In this document: positions 799 through 8,913 of the stretch, piece by piece | Position numbering within the stretch: position 1 is the stretch's first letter | Layout: each line of letters opens with the position of its first letter | NCBI GenBank assembly: GCA_019057635.1 | Contig: DXJL01000133.1 | Location: 1-64,000, forward strand | DNA from: Candidatus Heimdallarchaeota archaeon | GTDB taxonomy: Archaea; Asgardarchaeota; Heimdallarchaeia; Hodarchaeales; Hodarchaeaceae | DNA length: 64,000 bases | Direction of reading: 5' to 3' | The notes under the pieces: model-generated | What the model saw: only the letters and a program-made list of their open reading frames with translations | The model's database searches: none | Told to the model about the DNA's origin: nothing | Program-made: the position numbers and the translations under genes

Positions 799-1938
799 TC
801 AACCAAAGATCTCTTTTAAAGCATTTTTAATTATCTCAACCTCTGTTTCTGTGACTCCTGGATGAATTGGAACTTCAAAGTGGTTGTCCGATATTCGTTC
901 TGTTATAGGTAGACTAACGGTGCTATAATCGGGGTAATTCACGTACTTATTCCAACGCCATTCTTTTATTCCCTGAAGGTAAGTTGGTTGTTTATGACAT
1001 CCTAGAGAATAAATTCGTCGTGAAGCAATGTTTCTGTTCTTTAACTCCTTAATCACGGTATTAACTGAGTATTTATTCTCATCAACTACGGGTGCACAAA
1101 CATAATGACTATGGGTGTATCCTTTAGGAGTTTTTTGAATATTTACGTGCTCTAGCTCTGATATTGTTTGTCTCAGTGCCTCAGCGTTCCTTTTTCGTTT
1201 TTCTAGCATTGATGGTAATTTTCTTAATTGAATTAATCCAATTGCAGCTAATGGATCTGGAAGACGAAAATTGTAACCAATTCTGTGATGTTCATATCCT
1301 CCACTTGGACCCCTACCATGATTTTTGAGGCTTTTAATACGCGAAGCCAGATCATCATCATCGGTAACAATCATCCCCCCTTCTCCACTAATCATATTTT
1401 TAGTTGCATAAAAGGAGAAACATCCCATATCTCCGAACGTACCTACATGTTGACCATCGATTTTTGCCCCATGAGCTTGACAGGCATCCTCAATAATTAC
1501 CAAGTCATGATCCTCCGCAATGTCCCTAATGATATTCATATCACTGGGTAAACCAAAAATATGTACAGGAAGAATAGCCTTTGTTTGAGGTGTAACTAAT
1601 TTTTTTATACTTTCGGGATCTATGGTATAAGTTTCAGGATCTATTTCTGCAAAGATTGGTATACCCCCTCCAAATGTAATAGAATTAGCAGAGGCAATGA
1701 AAGTAAATGCAGGGGTAATGACTTCAGCTCCCGGTAATATATTTGCTGCTTCCATAGCAAGATGTAATGCTGCGGTCCCATTCACTGCACATATTGCATG
1801 TTTGGCACCTACAAATTCTGCAAATTCTTTTTCTAAAGCTCTTGCATTTTTTCCTTCAACAAATTGGCCGTTTCGAATAGTTGAAGAAACTAAGGATATT
1901 TCCTCTTCCGAAATTTGGGGTTGTGCAATAAATTTCAT
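799..1938 (-). CDS. DegT/DnrJ/EryC1/StrS family PLP-dependent aminotransferase
   Basis: 379 aa; motifs VNGTAALHLA, EDACQAHGA, GCFSFYATKNMISGEGGMIVT (PLP lysine context). Confidence 0.92.
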   Translation of the reverse strand: MKFIAQPQISEEEISLVSSTIRNGQFVEGKNARALEKEFAEFVGAKHAICAVNGTAALHLAMEAANILPGAEVITPAFTFIASANSITFGGGIPIFAEIDPETYTIDPESIKKLVTPQTKAILPVHIFGLPSDMNIIRDIAEDHDLVIIEDACQAHGAKIDGQHVGTFGDMGCFSFYATKNMISGEGGMIVTDDDDLASRIKSLKNHGRGPSGGYEHHRIGYNFRLPDPLAAIGLIQLRKLPSMLEKRKRNAEALRQTISELEHVNIQKTPKGYTHSHYVCAPVVDENKYSVNTVIKELKNRNIASRRIYSLGCHKQPTYLQGIKEWRWNKYVNYPDYSTVSLPITERISDNHFEVPIHPGVTETEVEIIKNALKEIFG

Positions 1939-2140: not shown

Positions 2141-2854
2141 GTGAATGTGAACACAGATGTCGAACAGGTTGTTAAAAGATATCAAAATGTATGTTCACAA
2201 CTTTCTCACCATATCCGAGACGGAAAACGTCCACAGTTTGTACTAGTAACTAAAAACCAGCCTGTAGCTCTAATCTTAAATCTTTTACAACATCTAGAAT
2301 CACCAATCTTTGGAGAAAATCGTGTTTCAGAAGCACTTTCCAAAATTGAAAAATGCGAAGATTCTAATGCGGAATGGCACTATATTGGCCACTTACAACG
2401 AAATAAAGTCAAATCTATACTTGGAAAATTTACTTTAATCCATTCATTGGCTGATATAAAATTAGCAAAAGAGATTGAAAAGAGAGCTGTAACAATTGGT
2501 CAAAATGTGAATTGCTTGATCCAAATAGATATATCTGAGGATGGGACGAAGTTTGGTTTTCCACCAGACCAGAGCTACTTAATAGACTTGATGAATGAAT
2601 TGACTCAGATGTCCTATTTACAAATAAAAGGGTTAATGACGATAGCACCTTTCATCCCCTCAGAAGAGACACGACCATATTTTAGAAAAATGCGGTCGAT
2701 CTTTGATGTATTAGCTGAACAAAGCCCTCACCTGAGAAATATTGAAATGGAAATCTTATCCATGGGGATGAGTAACGATTATATCGTTGCACTCGAGGAG
2801 GGTTCCACAATGATTAGAATTGGTAGTGCAATTTTTGAAGATCAAAGCTCCTGA
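2141..2854 (+). CDS. YggS/PROSC-family PLP-binding protein
   Basis: 237 aa; LVTKNQP, FGENRVSEAL, EWHYIGHLQRNKVKSI, GLMTIAP, LSMGMSNDYIVALEEGSTMIRIGSAIF. GTG start. Confidence 0.93.
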   Translation: MNVNTDVEQVVKRYQNVCSQLSHHIRDGKRPQFVLVTKNQPVALILNLLQHLESPIFGENRVSEALSKIEKCEDSNAEWHYIGHLQRNKVKSILGKFTLIHSLADIKLAKEIEKRAVTIGQNVNCLIQIDISEDGTKFGFPPDQSYLIDLMNELTQMSYLQIKGLMTIAPFIPSEETRPYFRKMRSIFDVLAEQSPHLRNIEMEILSMGMSNDYIVALEEGSTMIRIGSAIFEDQSS

Positions 2855-2862
2855 ATAAATTT

Positions 2863-5800
2863 ATGAAAAGGCAGAACATGAAGTTGATAAATATGACAAC
2901 TCCAGAAGTTAGTTTTACGCTAAGAAAAAGTGAAACAAAAATCTTAAACACATTAATATCCTTTGGTGGTCAAAACAAACATGATCTTATTCTTATTTCT
3001 GATGTACAAGAAGAAAAAGCTGAGCAAGCAATTTCAGAATTGATAAAAAAAGGATTTATTAGGCTGAACGAAGAAACAGGGCGTATTTCCGCTACTTTAC
3101 CCGTTTCTGCATTAACACGAATGTTCACTGAAAATATGGCTCTCATAGAAAGTATGAAAGAGAACTATAAAGAGGAATTTCATAGCTCAAAAAATTCTGT
3201 AGAAGAAACATTAAACAAGTTTCAGGAAACAGTGAATGACGGTTTCAAAGTTCTAAAAACTCAAAATGAAGAATTAGAGGTATCAATAAAAGAGGCCATA
3301 GAAGAAAAAGAAAAACTTAACCACTCGCAGTTAGACGAGATGGTGGATCAAGTAGTTACTTCAATGAATACAAAAATAACTGAAACTCAAAATTCTGTTC
3401 AGACAAGTATCTCAGAAGGGACATCGAAATTAGATAAACACTGGGGTAGAGCCATTGATGAATTTCAAAACTTACCTGACTCTGGGACCCGTTCTCTCAA
3501 AGAATCTATCACTAAATATGAACAAGAGTTAAATGAGATAATAAAATCCTCAGTTGAAAAAATTAATAGTATCCAAACTCAATTTAATGGTCTACTAGGT
3601 ACAATTGAATCTGAATCCGTTACTAGGATACAAGAATTCTACTCGAACACCGATACTGTTGGTAGTGACCTGAAAGTTAATTTAAATACTGGATTACAAG
3701 AATCTCGCAAACACGAAAAAGAATTCATCAAGGAAGTACGTCAACATGTCAGAACCTCACTCGAAAATGATGTACTAAACGCATTGAAGGTAGTAATTTC
3801 AGATTTATCAAAAGAAATTGATAATGATATAAATGAGGCCCTAAAACTTGTTGTTCAGCAAACTGATAAAGCAATCACTGCAAGTTCAGAACAAATGAAA
3901 ACAGAGTTTACTGAATTCACTGAAGATGCAAAAGAATTAATCCAAGAACAAAAAATCTCATTAAATGTCCTTGAAACAGAAATTTCGGAGATTACAGCAG
4001 AGCAGAAGCTAGAATCAGTAAGAGACTTATTTCTAAGCCAATTGCAAGCCGGTCAAACAACAGAACTTAATCAATTGGAAACAAGCTTCCGGCACACTCA
4101 AAAATCAGTAATCGATCTTGTTGAGTCTTTAAGAAATTCTGCAAAAGCTAAATTAGCCCAACAAGGAGTAGAGTTTGAAAAGCTACTCAATAATTTTTCT
4201 GATTTAATTGACCAATCGGTGAGCCGGAAGGAACTGGATATTACTAGATTACAACAACTATCTCAATCTATTGAACAATTATTAAGAAATTTGCTTGTCT
4301 CAATTCCAATGCGGACAGATCAATTTAGAATTTCCTTGAAAGATTCATTAGAAGGCACTAGTAAAAGTTTACAAGAAGAATATACAGAATCTTCGAGTGG
4401 TTCAGTAAGTAAAATTTACGAAAAACTTGCTGATTCTCAACAAAGAATTGAATCTATGACTAATGAAACCCTGGATGAAAGTAAAAATGAAATTGAGAAA
4501 GTGATTGCCTCATCAGATCAATTTGAATCTGGTATATCTGCTCTTCAAGAAGATTATCTGAGTAAAGTTGAAAATCGATTTGATCAGAGAGCTAAAGTGA
4601 TGAATACAGAGTTAAAAGCAATAACTCGCAATTTCCAACAATTACTTGAGGGAATTGAAACAGGAGTCGGAGGCATTCATTCTCGTTTGACTTCAGAAGG
4701 CGTTACAAATATTTCTGCTGTTGAAACCTCTCTTCAGAGCAAACTGACTCAACTTAGGAGTGAAATAACTACCATATTTTCACAGAGTCAATCTGAGGCG
4801 CAAGAATTTGTTAGTTCGTTAAATGAAAATTTACAAACCCATTTAGAACGCACATTAGACGTAATTAAAGAGGGTTTTAGTCAAGTCAAATCTGAATATA
4901 ATTTAGAGCTCTCAAATCAGTTAGAACAGCTTAATAGCAAAAGCAAGGAACAACAAGACACTTTAATTGAAACAATAGAAGCTTTTTCACAGAAAGCATC
5001 CTTTAGTGGTTTTAAATCGAATCTCGAGAAAACGCTTGAAGAAAATCAAAGTACCCTAAATGAATTTATTGCTGAAAATCGAAGCAATTTGGATGAAGTT
5101 ATTTCTTTACAGAAAGTAAATATTACCAAATATCAAGAAAAAGGACCTACGGATATATTAGGGTTTATTAATCAAATTCAATCCAATGCTACCACTCAAA
5201 ACAAGAATATCAAAGACACACTGGAAGACCTACTTTCCTATCACAACAGTTTTTCAGATTCAACGATGTCTGAGGTAACAACATTAATTCGTCAGGTTCA
5301 TGAGAGTGGAGATAAGCTTAAATCAATTCTTAATGAATCTTTACAGACTATGTTAACCAACCTGAATCGTACAAGCGAAAATATTGATTTATATTATTCT
5401 GATACGCTAACGGAACTAGAAAATCAGCTTGGAGTCGCTTCAGGATTTGTTACCTCTGAAATTGACACTTCCTTCCAATCGATCCGTAGTGAAATTGAGT
5501 CATTGAAGGAGGGTATGGAAAATACAGTAGCAAGGCTTAATACAGATCTCAAAGGAATAGTTTCTGATTCAGACCAAGAATTCAAGAGTAATGTTCCTGA
5601 AATCACAAAACAATTTTCTAGCGCTTTTGATACTTTGGTAAAAGAAAAAACATCCTCTAACTTAGAGTTACAAAATACACTCTCTGATAATATGACAAAT
5701 TTTATGACATCTTATAGTTCTCAAGTGTCTGCTATTAGAACAAAGCTACATGATTTATTAGCTCAATTTAACAAAGCTATTGAGTCGAACCTTGAAAATT

Positions 5801-7077
5801 TAGACGTTATTGTCGAAACCAATATAAGTCAAGCTTTGAAAAGATTCGAATCTATATATCATATCGATTCAAGCAAAGAAGATCCATTTGGTTTGCGAGA
5901 TATTCATTCCAAAGTCATAGTGGCAAATAAACGGTTAAAATCCGTTGTCTCTGATTCAATTCGCACTCAGCTTGAAGACTTTGAAAGTAACATACCTGAT
6001 CTACAAACCTCTTTTGACGCTATTCACACTCAATCTGAGGAAGATTTGACAAAATCTATCGAGGAATTATCAGATATAATTTCAAGTTCTCAAATGACTC
6101 TTACTACCGATCTGCATAATTATCTAAATGAGGAAAGAGAGCAATTGGATTTTTCAGAATTGCGTGATAGCCTGAAGGATGTTTTACAAGGTTTTAATGA
6201 AGACTCAACCCAAAATATTGAACAACTCTCTCTTGATTTTACCGACAGTATTCAACGTGCAATTAATGAGGTTAACAAATCACGGGAAGAAATACAATCC
6301 ATTTTAGCTGATTTGACGGAAGTAATGAAGGAGCGAATTATCCAGTCAACTACACAATTAACCTCTTTGAAATCCGAACTGAGTACAGAAGTGGAAGGGA
6401 TGAGTAGTGAATTTTCAAAAAATTTATCTACAGATCTAGAATCGTACAATAATGATATAGAAAAATTTAATTTAGAAAACAAAGGGAATATGGCCAAGTT
6501 TATCCAATCATTGAATAATGAAATTGAAACTTATCTCTCAGAATTTTTAAACAAAACCAATGAGATTCTAAACGGGATAAAAGATTCCCACTCACAGCAA
6601 GCCGATGTTTTAGAAACTTTAGAGACTGAATTATCTGAAAATGAGCCAATTTCATATTTACGGTTGCTAAAATTATCAACAAATCATGCGATCAATGAAT
6701 ACTTTATGAAGCTAATAGAAAAAGCGTCTAAACAAGTTACATTATATATGTCAGACCCTACTATTCTTTCATCAGCTGATCTCAAATCTATTCCCTCAGA
6801 AAAACGAATTTGGATTTTTACAAACTTTAATTTCAGTAAAAAGGGTAAAAAATGGTTTACTGAGATTGGTAAGCAAGTAAATATAAATTTACGTAAATCT
6901 AAAGGTGCTAGTAATATTACTGGGATATTAGCGGTCAAGGATGAAGATCAAGCCGTTGTCTTACCTGATGAAGTTGGTTTTACCACACTTGATGAGAAAT
7001 TTGTGGCTTACTTATTGAACATATTAAATATGTTAAAGGGTTCATCTCTCAGACCAAGAAAAGGATCTGGTCAATAA
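2863..7077 (+). CDS. Giant coiled-coil protein with N-terminal winged HTH and TrmB-like C-terminal domain
   Basis: 1404 aa single ORF. aa ~10-85 wHTH-like (RKSETKILNTLISFGGQNKHDLILISDVQEEKAEQAISELIKKGFIRLNEETGRISATLPVSALTRMF); aa ~90-1290 E/K/Q/S/N-rich heptad-like helix; last ~110 aa alpha/beta (VTLYMSDPTILSSADLKSIPSEKRIWIFTNFNFSKKGKKWFTEI...NINLRKSKGASNITGILAVKDEDQAVVLPDE). Confidence 0.85.
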   Translation: MKRQNMKLINMTTPEVSFTLRKSETKILNTLISFGGQNKHDLILISDVQEEKAEQAISELIKKGFIRLNEETGRISATLPVSALTRMFTENMALIESMKENYKEEFHSSKNSVEETLNKFQETVNDGFKVLKTQNEELEVSIKEAIEEKEKLNHSQLDEMVDQVVTSMNTKITETQNSVQTSISEGTSKLDKHWGRAIDEFQNLPDSGTRSLKESITKYEQELNEIIKSSVEKINSIQTQFNGLLGTIESESVTRIQEFYSNTDTVGSDLKVNLNTGLQESRKHEKEFIKEVRQHVRTSLENDVLNALKVVISDLSKEIDNDINEALKLVVQQTDKAITASSEQMKTEFTEFTEDAKELIQEQKISLNVLETEISEITAEQKLESVRDLFLSQLQAGQTTELNQLETSFRHTQKSVIDLVESLRNSAKAKLAQQGVEFEKLLNNFSDLIDQSVSRKELDITRLQQLSQSIEQLLRNLLVSIPMRTDQFRISLKDSLEGTSKSLQEEYTESSSGSVSKIYEKLADSQQRIESMTNETLDESKNEIEKVIASSDQFESGISALQEDYLSKVENRFDQRAKVMNTELKAITRNFQQLLEGIETGVGGIHSRLTSEGVTNISAVETSLQSKLTQLRSEITTIFSQSQSEAQEFVSSLNENLQTHLERTLDVIKEGFSQVKSEYNLELSNQLEQLNSKSKEQQDTLIETIEAFSQKASFSGFKSNLEKTLEENQSTLNEFIAENRSNLDEVISLQKVNITKYQEKGPTDILGFINQIQSNATTQNKNIKDTLEDLLSYHNSFSDSTMSEVTTLIRQVHESGDKLKSILNESLQTMLTNLNRTSENIDLYYSDTLTELENQLGVASGFVTSEIDTSFQSIRSEIESLKEGMENTVARLNTDLKGIVSDSDQEFKSNVPEITKQFSSAFDTLVKEKTSSNLELQNTLSDNMTNFMTSYSSQVSAIRTKLHDLLAQFNKAIESNLENLDVIVETNISQALKRFESIYHIDSSKEDPFGLRDIHSKVIVANKRLKSVVSDSIRTQLEDFESNIPDLQTSFDAIHTQSEEDLTKSIEELSDIISSSQMTLTTDLHNYLNEEREQLDFSELRDSLKDVLQGFNEDSTQNIEQLSLDFTDSIQRAINEVNKSREEIQSILADLTEVMKERIIQSTTQLTSLKSELSTEVEGMSSEFSKNLSTDLESYNNDIEKFNLENKGNMAKFIQSLNNEIETYLSEFLNKTNEILNGIKDSHSQQADVLETLETELSENEPISYLRLLKLSTNHAINEYFMKLIEKASKQVTLYMSDPTILSSADLKSIPSEKRIWIFTNFNFSKKGKKWFTEIGKQVNINLRKSKGASNITGILAVKDEDQAVVLPDEVGFTTLDEKFVAYLLNILNMLKGSSLRPRKGSGQ

Positions 7078-7092
7078 CAATCTAAATTGAAA

Positions 7093-8913
7093 CTAGATAC
7101 TGATTATCCCAAGCAGCTTTGATTTCTTCAAGGTGTTCAATTTGACTAGGCCTTCAGGATTCAGGCCTTTCGCTTCATAATACGAAGTGACTAGTTCATT
7201 TTGTTTTTTGTAAAATTCACTTTCTCCCTCAAGATATCGAGGAAAGACGTCATTAGAAGGTGATAAACCTGCTCGTGTGTTGAAAAGGCGTTCTAGCAAT
7301 GTAATTCGATTTCCTATCTCCAGAATATTGGTACTAGAACCATTTGAGGAAGTTAAATGGTTAATTAAAGGAGAGACTATTGATTTATTAAACAAAATAC
7401 TTGATAACAGTCTTATTGGCATTGTCTGTAAAATAATTCCTCTCAATCTCGAAGGAAATTTATTTAAAATGGTATTTGACTTCAAGAACATCGGTAGGAA
7501 TCGTGGACACAGAATTAGTGCGTCCAGAACTGCGCTAAGGTTTTCAAACAAAATCTTTAACTTAATTTTTCCTTTTATCGACAGAGGAGAGAGTAAAAAA
7601 GGGTATCCAAGAAATTCTGGATAAACTAAGCTTCCTGTTTTAAAATGAGTAGCTCCATACGGAGCGGAACTAAGATCCATACTCAAAACTGGACAATTAG
7701 GATAGTAAAACATTCCTGTCATCTGTCCCTTAATCATTGGGGAAGGTTCACTTGTCTGTTTGTACAGGTAATTTTCTCCCCGAGCTAGTTTGTCTCCTAA
7801 TTCCCTTTTCTGGATGATGTCGTCGATAAGAGAATAGATTTGGGATTCTCCCCAGTTAAATCCTAGATTTATGTTTAGAAGTTTACGCTTGTCTTCCTGA
7901 ATATGAAATAAGGATGCTAAAGCAGCACCTGTTGATATGGGGTCAAGTCCCTCCTCATCACATTTTACTATAGCTGCCTGAATAGATTCATGGTCTATTA
8001 TTTTAAGATTAGGACCTAATGCTACAAAGTTCTGATAGGAGTTTCTTTCACATTTGACAGAACATTGCCAACAGTCATAAGCTTCACCATATCCATGAAA
8101 AGATGAAACTTGATCTGATTGAAGTGTCAGTTTTCTTGAACAATTTTTTGTTGGAAGACTGTCATATTTAATTATCTGATGAATGGTTGAGTACGTACCT
8201 TGAGTATGTAACAACTGACTCCAGGGATGGTTTAGTAATGTCGATTTAAGTAGGGATAATTCATCCTCAGTGATTTCAGGAAAATTTGAAGGCGCTGGAG
8301 GGTCAGTAAGAACAATCGCCTTTATATTCTTAGATGCAAAAACGCTTCCAAGTCCTCCTCGATGGAAAAAATGCGTCCGATCAACTACAACACCCGAATA
8401 CGTAACTTGATTGATAGCTGCTTTTCCTATAACAGCAATGCATGATTTCTGGCCATATTTTTGCCTTAGTATAGTGTCAGATTTTTCAACACTTTCTAAC
8501 CAAAATTCCGAGGCATTCTCAAAGGTAATATCAGCAAATTCATCGATCACAATATATTGTGGAGATTTCGCTTTACCTTTGATCTGTAAGAAGTCGTACC
8601 CTGTATGCTTGAGATAAGCTCCGAAATGACCTGTACTCGTTGCTGTACATAATGTATTAGTGTGGGGAGATTTAAATGTGGCTATAGCTGTACCAGAAGA
8701 AGGGATTATTGATCCAGTTAAAGCTCCTGTCCCAAAAATTATATTATTATCTGGTCCACGTGGACTTGTGTCAACAGGAATGGATTCATAACCTAAATAT
8801 ACTGCAATTCCTCTACCTCCAAGAAATGCCTCGACCACCCTGGGATCGATAGATTTTTTCGGAATAACTTTATTCTCAGTTAAATCTAGGGATACAAGCG
8901 TTGGAGAATACAT
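7093..8913 (-). CDS. Aldehyde:ferredoxin oxidoreductase family (tungsten enzyme)
   Basis: 606 aa; FLGGRGIAVYLGYE, FGTGALTGSIIPSSGT, YDCWQCSVKCER (CxxCxxxC cluster ligands) and DALILC (fourth ligand motif). Confidence 0.93.
   Translation of the reverse strand: MYSPTLVSLDLTENKVIPKKSIDPRVVEAFLGGRGIAVYLGYESIPVDTSPRGPDNNIIFGTGALTGSIIPSSGTAIATFKSPHTNTLCTATSTGHFGAYLKHTGYDFLQIKGKAKSPQYIVIDEFADITFENASEFWLESVEKSDTILRQKYGQKSCIAVIGKAAINQVTYSGVVVDRTHFFHRGGLGSVFASKNIKAIVLTDPPAPSNFPEITEDELSLLKSTLLNHPWSQLLHTQGTYSTIHQIIKYDSLPTKNCSRKLTLQSDQVSSFHGYGEAYDCWQCSVKCERNSYQNFVALGPNLKIIDHESIQAAIVKCDEEGLDPISTGAALASLFHIQEDKRKLLNINLGFNWGESQIYSLIDDIIQKRELGDKLARGENYLYKQTSEPSPMIKGQMTGMFYYPNCPVLSMDLSSAPYGATHFKTGSLVYPEFLGYPFLLSPLSIKGKIKLKILFENLSAVLDALILCPRFLPMFLKSNTILNKFPSRLRGIILQTMPIRLLSSILFNKSIVSPLINHLTSSNGSSTNILEIGNRITLLERLFNTRAGLSPSNDVFPRYLEGESEFYKKQNELVTSYYEAKGLNPEGLVKLNTLKKSKLLGIISI

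Follow-up and report, generated by a model that had tools for sequence, protein, structure and literature searches.

TrmBL2 of Thermococcales (PDB 5bpd, 5bqt, and 5box) is an abundant chromatin protein made up of an extended winged helix-turn-helix (ewHTH), a dimerization helix, and a C-terminal domain without a sugar-binding subdomain (PMC4877046). It is about 264 amino acids (aa) long with one short helix, is tetrameric, and coats DNA as filaments. The window analyzed here (64,000 nucleotides of contig DXJL01000133.1 of a Candidatus Heimdallarchaeota archaeon) encodes a 1404-aa protein whose winged-helix head has TrmBL2 as its closest PDB sequence match (E = 8.2e-9), but which belongs to an Asgard family with 400 to 1850 residues of hendecad coil and has a recognition helix that differs from that of TrmBL2. 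We read it as a TrmB/TrmBL2-derived, pan-Asgard rod protein that would serve as a spacer or tether, with chromosome organization or replication as the most likely setting, and give this reading a probability of roughly 45%.

TrmB of Pyrococcus (PDB 3qph and 2f5t) is homologous to the same head (E = 6.7e-5; 7.5e-14 with a profile of the whole family), and the Asgard C-terminal domain is related to the first half of its effector domain (PF11495); the Asgard proteins lack the sugar-binding half, and their rod is enormously longer than the TrmB coil. The coils of SMC and condensin are likewise very long and of conserved length, and an approximately 800-aa paralogue of the protein is genomically linked to SMC–ScpB; in contrast to SMC and condensin, no ATP-binding cassette (ABC) ATPase or hinge was found in the 1404-aa protein by Pfam scan, and its rod repeats as a hendecad (3.67 residues) rather than a heptad (3.50). 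Other hendecad coiled-coil families have comparable long runs of 11-residue repeats. Such families were reportedly surveyed in J Struct Biol in 2023.

Winged-Helix Head and C-Terminal Domain

The protein and its three parts are placed as follows:

2863..7077, + strand: long-rod TrmB-like protein, coding sequence (CDS) of 1404 aa (single open frame; orthologue alignment; ratio of nonsynonymous to synonymous substitution [dN/dS] 0.11–0.16)
2914..3132, + strand: TrmB/TrmBL2-type winged helix, aa 18–90 (Pfam TrmB and PDB profile matches)
3133..6642, + strand: hendecad coiled-coil rod, aa 91–1260 (hydrophobic periodicity; helix predicted over most of aa 81–600)
6646..7053, + strand: C-terminal domain, aa 1262–1397, a pan-Asgard family akin to the first half of Regulator_TrmB

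Taken singly, the 1404-aa protein stays below the curated cut-off of Pfam TrmB (PF01978, 25.6 bits), scoring 18.2 bits as a whole and 21.2 bits over aa 1–150. Four relatives exceed the cut-off (30.2, 29.9, 38.6, and 27.1 bits), and at E values up to 0.1 the model is matched by all 39 family N-termini. The matches to TrmBL2 and TrmB given above for the head were obtained with a profile that included its orthologues; a family-wide head profile brought the TrmBL2 match to 5.5e-15, and it also matched the ESCRT-II subunit SNF8 (E = 4.9e-5). By profile comparison, the head of the 1404-aa protein is homologous to the solved winged helices of TrmB and TrmBL2; an earlier note on this DNA, made from the letters and their translation, had proposed such an N-terminal winged helix-turn-helix (wHTH).

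The C-terminal domain of the 1404-aa protein has no direct match in Pfam or the PDB, PF11495 included, and its alpha/beta character comes from predicted secondary structure only (AlphaFold2 [AF2] predicted local distance difference test [pLDDT] score, 51). The connection to TrmB runs through relatives: Regulator_TrmB (PF11495) is matched by eight of 34 members of the C-domain family at E values up to 0.1, and above its curated cut-off by two, L088 (25.3 bits) and L094 (23.8 bits). Both align to positions 3–122 of 233, a span that, judging from the description of TrmBL2, would leave out the sugar-binding subdomain. A profile of the window-side C domains (A1) reached the L088 protein at 3.7e-7; because A1 holds neither L088 nor L094, the link between this domain and Regulator_TrmB is not circular. 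Homology to the effector domain that the earlier note had proposed for the C-terminus is present through these relatives and, together with the head matches, bears out its view of a TrmB plan with a greatly lengthened coil, here in an Asgard archaeon. A comparison by VIA-align did not discriminate, since unrelated chains scored as high as the TrmB chains 3qph (Z = 3.0) and 2f5t (Z = 3.1).

The C-terminal domain of the 1404-aa group is basic (net charge +5 to +10); of the two ends of the 1404-aa protein, the tail rather than the head is the basic one. Within the domain, the basic motif F[ST]KKGKKW (window positions 6832–6855, aa 1324–1331) is strongly conserved in the aligned full-length orthologues of the group.

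The Hendecad Rod and Its Spread Among Asgards

The rod comprises about 1170 residues, is rich in S, E, L, T, N, and I, and contains 0.6% proline. Its hydrophobic residues recur with a period of 3.667 at a power of 1.98, nearly ten times that of shuffled sequences (0.21 ± 0.04); the SMC protein of the source genome, treated by the same method, has a period of 3.50. Because the two periods differ in this way, the rod is classed as a hendecad (11/3) coil, and a heptad coiled coil was rejected. These residues form a narrow stripe: of the 11 positions, three are 62%–72% LIVMF, the next reach 0.28–0.30, and the others are at most 30%, where phase fitting alone raises shuffled sequence to 0.47 at most. 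AlphaFold predicted a nearly unbroken helix from aa 81 onward in a model of aa 1–600, at low confidence (pLDDT 46), which agrees with the earlier expectation that the middle would be helical rather than disordered. At 0.15 nm per residue the rod would extend for about 175 nm, provided that the helix is continuous.

Over some 1160 positions in the center of the protein, no full-length orthologue differs by more than three deleted and three inserted residues. Compared with the orthologues in G001 and G011, dN/dS is 0.14 and 0.10 for the rod, 0.28 and 0.22 for the wHTH, and 0.26 and 0.14 for the C-terminal domain; having the lowest values, the rod is the most constrained of the three parts. It is also strongly acidic (net charge −68 to −89). 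Pfam and NCBIfam scans of the 1404-aa protein returned no ATPase family such as the ABC head of SMC/Rad50-type proteins. Two other NCBIfam candidates, ZorA (NF033914; 21.3 bits against a cut-off of 190) and sll1863 (far below its cut-off), matched the coil region only and were set aside.

The C-domain profile A1 found matches in 146 of 227 Asgard genomes (E up to 0.01), and a wider profile built from 34 members (A5) in 220 of 227 (E up to 0.001); weak matches also turned up in 17 of 165 non-Asgard genomes, counted at the level of the genome. Homologues of the full architecture in Asgards, which the earlier note had suggested looking for, thus exist as a family: 43 open reading frames (ORFs) taken as full length span 642–2084 aa, and all 40 members fetched separately (606–1913 aa, a set overlapping partly with the 43) peak at a period of 3.63–3.70. 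From these comparisons the architecture is pan-Asgard and not peculiar to the 1404-aa gene, and this breadth, like the hendecad nature of the coil, goes beyond what the earlier note had proposed.

Two shorter paralogues, of about 800 and about 766 aa, accompany the 1404-aa protein in the source genome. In a tree of the C domain, based on 141 columns and with an unsure deep branching order, the approximately 800-aa proteins cluster with members from other families of the class. Four proteins (L076, L080, L098, and L099), tentatively Lokiarchaeia-type (the lineage name is a guess), arrange the same parts differently: their winged helix is preceded by an additional N-terminal domain, and their TrmB-type C domain lies internally, followed by an extension at the C-terminus. 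Two weak matches were excluded from the family by eye: L019 has no recognizable head, and L020 is a small GTPase whose coil is short.

Proposed Role and Rival Explanations

In the proposed mechanism, the protein, whose extremely long hendecad rod joins a winged-helix head to a C-terminal domain of TrmB type, would oligomerize, probably as a parallel dimer, into a rigid spacer that keeps a partner bound by its heads some 0.1–0.2 μm from one held by its C-terminal domains. The oligomeric state and orientation are assumed by analogy with TrmB relatives, and tethering is inferred. The approximately 800-aa paralogue of Hodarchaeales would act beside SMC, and the 1404-aa copy may be a longer, diverged specialist, the partner of whose heads may have changed.

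The genomic setting of the family points to the chromosome. In the source genome, the approximately 800-aa paralogue lies on the opposite strand between two scpB genes (Pfam, 62.0 and 67.4 bits) and a 286-aa gene followed by SMC (154.6 bits), at L139:5755-14942 (G000:C133, about 110754–119941). The order ScpB–ScpB–[coil]–kleisin-like–SMC recurs in all seven genomes fetched (G000, G001, G002, G006, G007, G009, and G010), with Pfam confirmation of ScpB and SMC in G000 only; the 286-aa gene is kleisin-like by position and sequence, with no Pfam support. In G080, a Cdc6/Orc1 gene, a gene for a cysteine-rich protein (f2, see below), and the coil gene follow each other on one strand (L151:4408-10468), possibly near a replication origin; in other families, members are flanked by a DNA ligase gene (L089, L090, and L101) or a Dna2-like helicase gene (L065, L068, and L030). 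Because of these SMC, ScpB, Cdc6, ligase, and Dna2-like neighbors, chromosome organization appears the most likely setting for the family. For the 1404-aa copy such a setting would follow by paralogy, so that the chromosome-organizing function suggested in the earlier note gains indirect support from the SMC-linked paralogue and none from the gene's own surroundings.

Several observations weigh against this reading. The wHTH of the 1404-aa group has a net charge of −1 to −6 (ten orthologues, including that in the window), and the group lacks the "PG..RY" wing that is common in relatives. The recognition helices of the source genome's three canonical TrmBs read GRIY, GRIY, and GRVY, a GR[IV]Y signature that we take to be a DNA contact; it is absent from the recognition helix of the genome's three coil proteins. 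The looser pattern [RK][IVT]Y[DNSE] occupies that helix in none of 43 family members, its five matches all falling elsewhere in the N-terminus (fragments without an N-terminus, and six rows with an extra N-terminal domain that were kept in the tree, are excluded from this count). With a neutral to acidic wHTH, the wing lost, and the canonical signature absent, the DNA-binding N-terminal end envisaged earlier is not supported; the fold is retained, but its ligand may have changed. In 40 other coil neighborhoods, nothing matched the SMC, kleisin-like, and ScpB profiles built from these genomes; the SMC link is thus seen within one genus only and may be a single inherited arrangement. The neighbors of the 1404-aa gene itself (YggS, DegT, and AFOR) are metabolic, not chromosomal, and in the C-domain tree its group sits on a long branch of its own (2.19) and is not sister to the approximately 800-aa group. 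Finally, the AF2 models of both ends are poor (pLDDT 46 and 51).

The alternative that survives best, although we consider it unlikely, is a cytoplasmic or membrane-side scaffold resembling a golgin or linker, in which the end domains bind protein and the rod is a spacer without a chromosomal role. A scaffold of this kind would accommodate the neutral to acidic wHTH without its canonical recognition signature, the non-DNA neighbors of the 1404-aa copy, and the small-GTPase genes near some members; wHTHs can bind protein, as in the ESCRT-II subunit SNF8 matched by the family profile. It sits poorly with the paralogue within the SMC cluster in seven of seven genomes and with the Cdc6, DNA ligase, and Dna2-like neighbors of other members. 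Decidedly improbable is an ordinary TrmB-type transcription regulator whose rod is a long lever from sensor to DNA-binding head: both end domains are of TrmB type, but the sugar-binding half of PF11495 is absent (the matches above cut-off stop near position 122 of 233), the recognition signature is missing, and such a role does not call for a rod of more than 1000 residues that is also the most constrained part of the protein. A lipid-binding, apolipoprotein-like amphipathic protein is suggested by the match to PF01442 (Apolipoprotein A1/A4/E), which narrowly passes its cut-off (90.1 against 90 bits), and by the shared 11-residue periodicity. It was rejected as very improbable, since the relatives scanned score 22–67 bits, below the cut-off, and since the rod has a narrow hydrophobic face, a strongly acidic charge, and a length conserved almost without gaps; database models partly misread the family as apolipoprotein.

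No known relatives of complex cells are closer than the Asgards, and the family is found in almost every Asgard genome, with proteins of up to about 2080 aa. Were it chromosomal, a reading to which the SMC-linked paralogue points, it would be a concrete structural component of the Asgard nucleoid. The family further illustrates how a short transcription factor can turn into a rod of 0.1–0.25 μm when its dimerization helix is lengthened. The broadest form of the proposal, that Asgards possess near-universal chromosome-tethering rods whose TrmBL2-derived heads sit on hendecad stalks reaching about 250 nm at most, acting with condensin and replication factors, we hold to be doubtful; if true, the family would be a scaffold element of archaeal chromosome organization, possibly bearing on the pre-eukaryotic evolution of long-range chromosome architecture. 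No description of the family was recognized in the available text of the literature searched, including PMC11459464, PMC4877046, PMC9426492, and PMC11894787 (subscription papers lay outside the scope of the search).

Locus, Orthologues, and Recurrent Neighbors

The source assembly is a metagenome-assembled genome of an Asgard archaeon (Hodarchaeales-type, 3.19 Mb; labeled G000), in which the window is contig C106. Three genes surround the 1404-aa CDS:

799..1938, − strand: DegT/DnrJ-type aminotransferase, conserved divergent neighbor
2141..2854, + strand: YggS-family pyridoxal phosphate (PLP) protein, partner gene directly upstream (TIGR00044, 153.8 bits)
7093..8913, − strand: AFOR-family oxidoreductase, conserved convergent neighbor

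The ORF is uninterrupted and begins 8 bp after the end of yggS (2854), just as first reported. Matches to the protein were found in all 12 genomes of the genus, the source included, and are full length in ten (again including the source), nearly gapless, and 41%–96% identical. Of the incomplete copies, that in G004 ends at a contig end and that in G005 is broken by a run of N; the latter was considered as a genuine short form and rejected in favor of the assembly gap. Full-length orthologues in independent assemblies exclude an assembly chimera. Two of the orthologues open at the residue equivalent to aa 11, and the true start of the CDS may accordingly lie at 2893.

The yggS gene adjoins the coil gene in 13 of 13 loci compared, including the window, and the order DegT–yggS–coil–AFOR is conserved across the genus wherever the contig reaches, with the sole exception of G005, in which no AFOR gene was seen beyond the run of N. 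In G025, which belongs to another family, yggS and a partial coil gene share a contig of 3432 bp (L015, G025:C56; 58% identity), which would represent either a mis-binned contig or a gene transfer.

The f2 gene encodes a cysteine-rich protein of about 290 aa with no Pfam match; 155 of 227 Asgard genomes have it. Several deep lineages (G058, G074, G078, G080, G081, G082, and G173) carry f2 directly upstream of the coil gene, and its product is a probable functional partner of the coil protein. Its positions are:

L072:1623-2495
L073:6013-6870
L077:4417-5322
L085:2030-2911
L086:1228-2139
L150:7350-8297
L151:8183-9034

Outside G080, individual cases of proximity to Cdc6 were seen at L162, L166, and L182. 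In three genomes, a gene for a membrane-anchored-looking protein matching the Pfam models UFL1 (E3 UFM1 ligase), DDRGK, and PCI is divergent from a coil gene encoding 1907–2084 aa, at these positions:

L070:1080-2243
L071:9497-10669
L075:7738-8892

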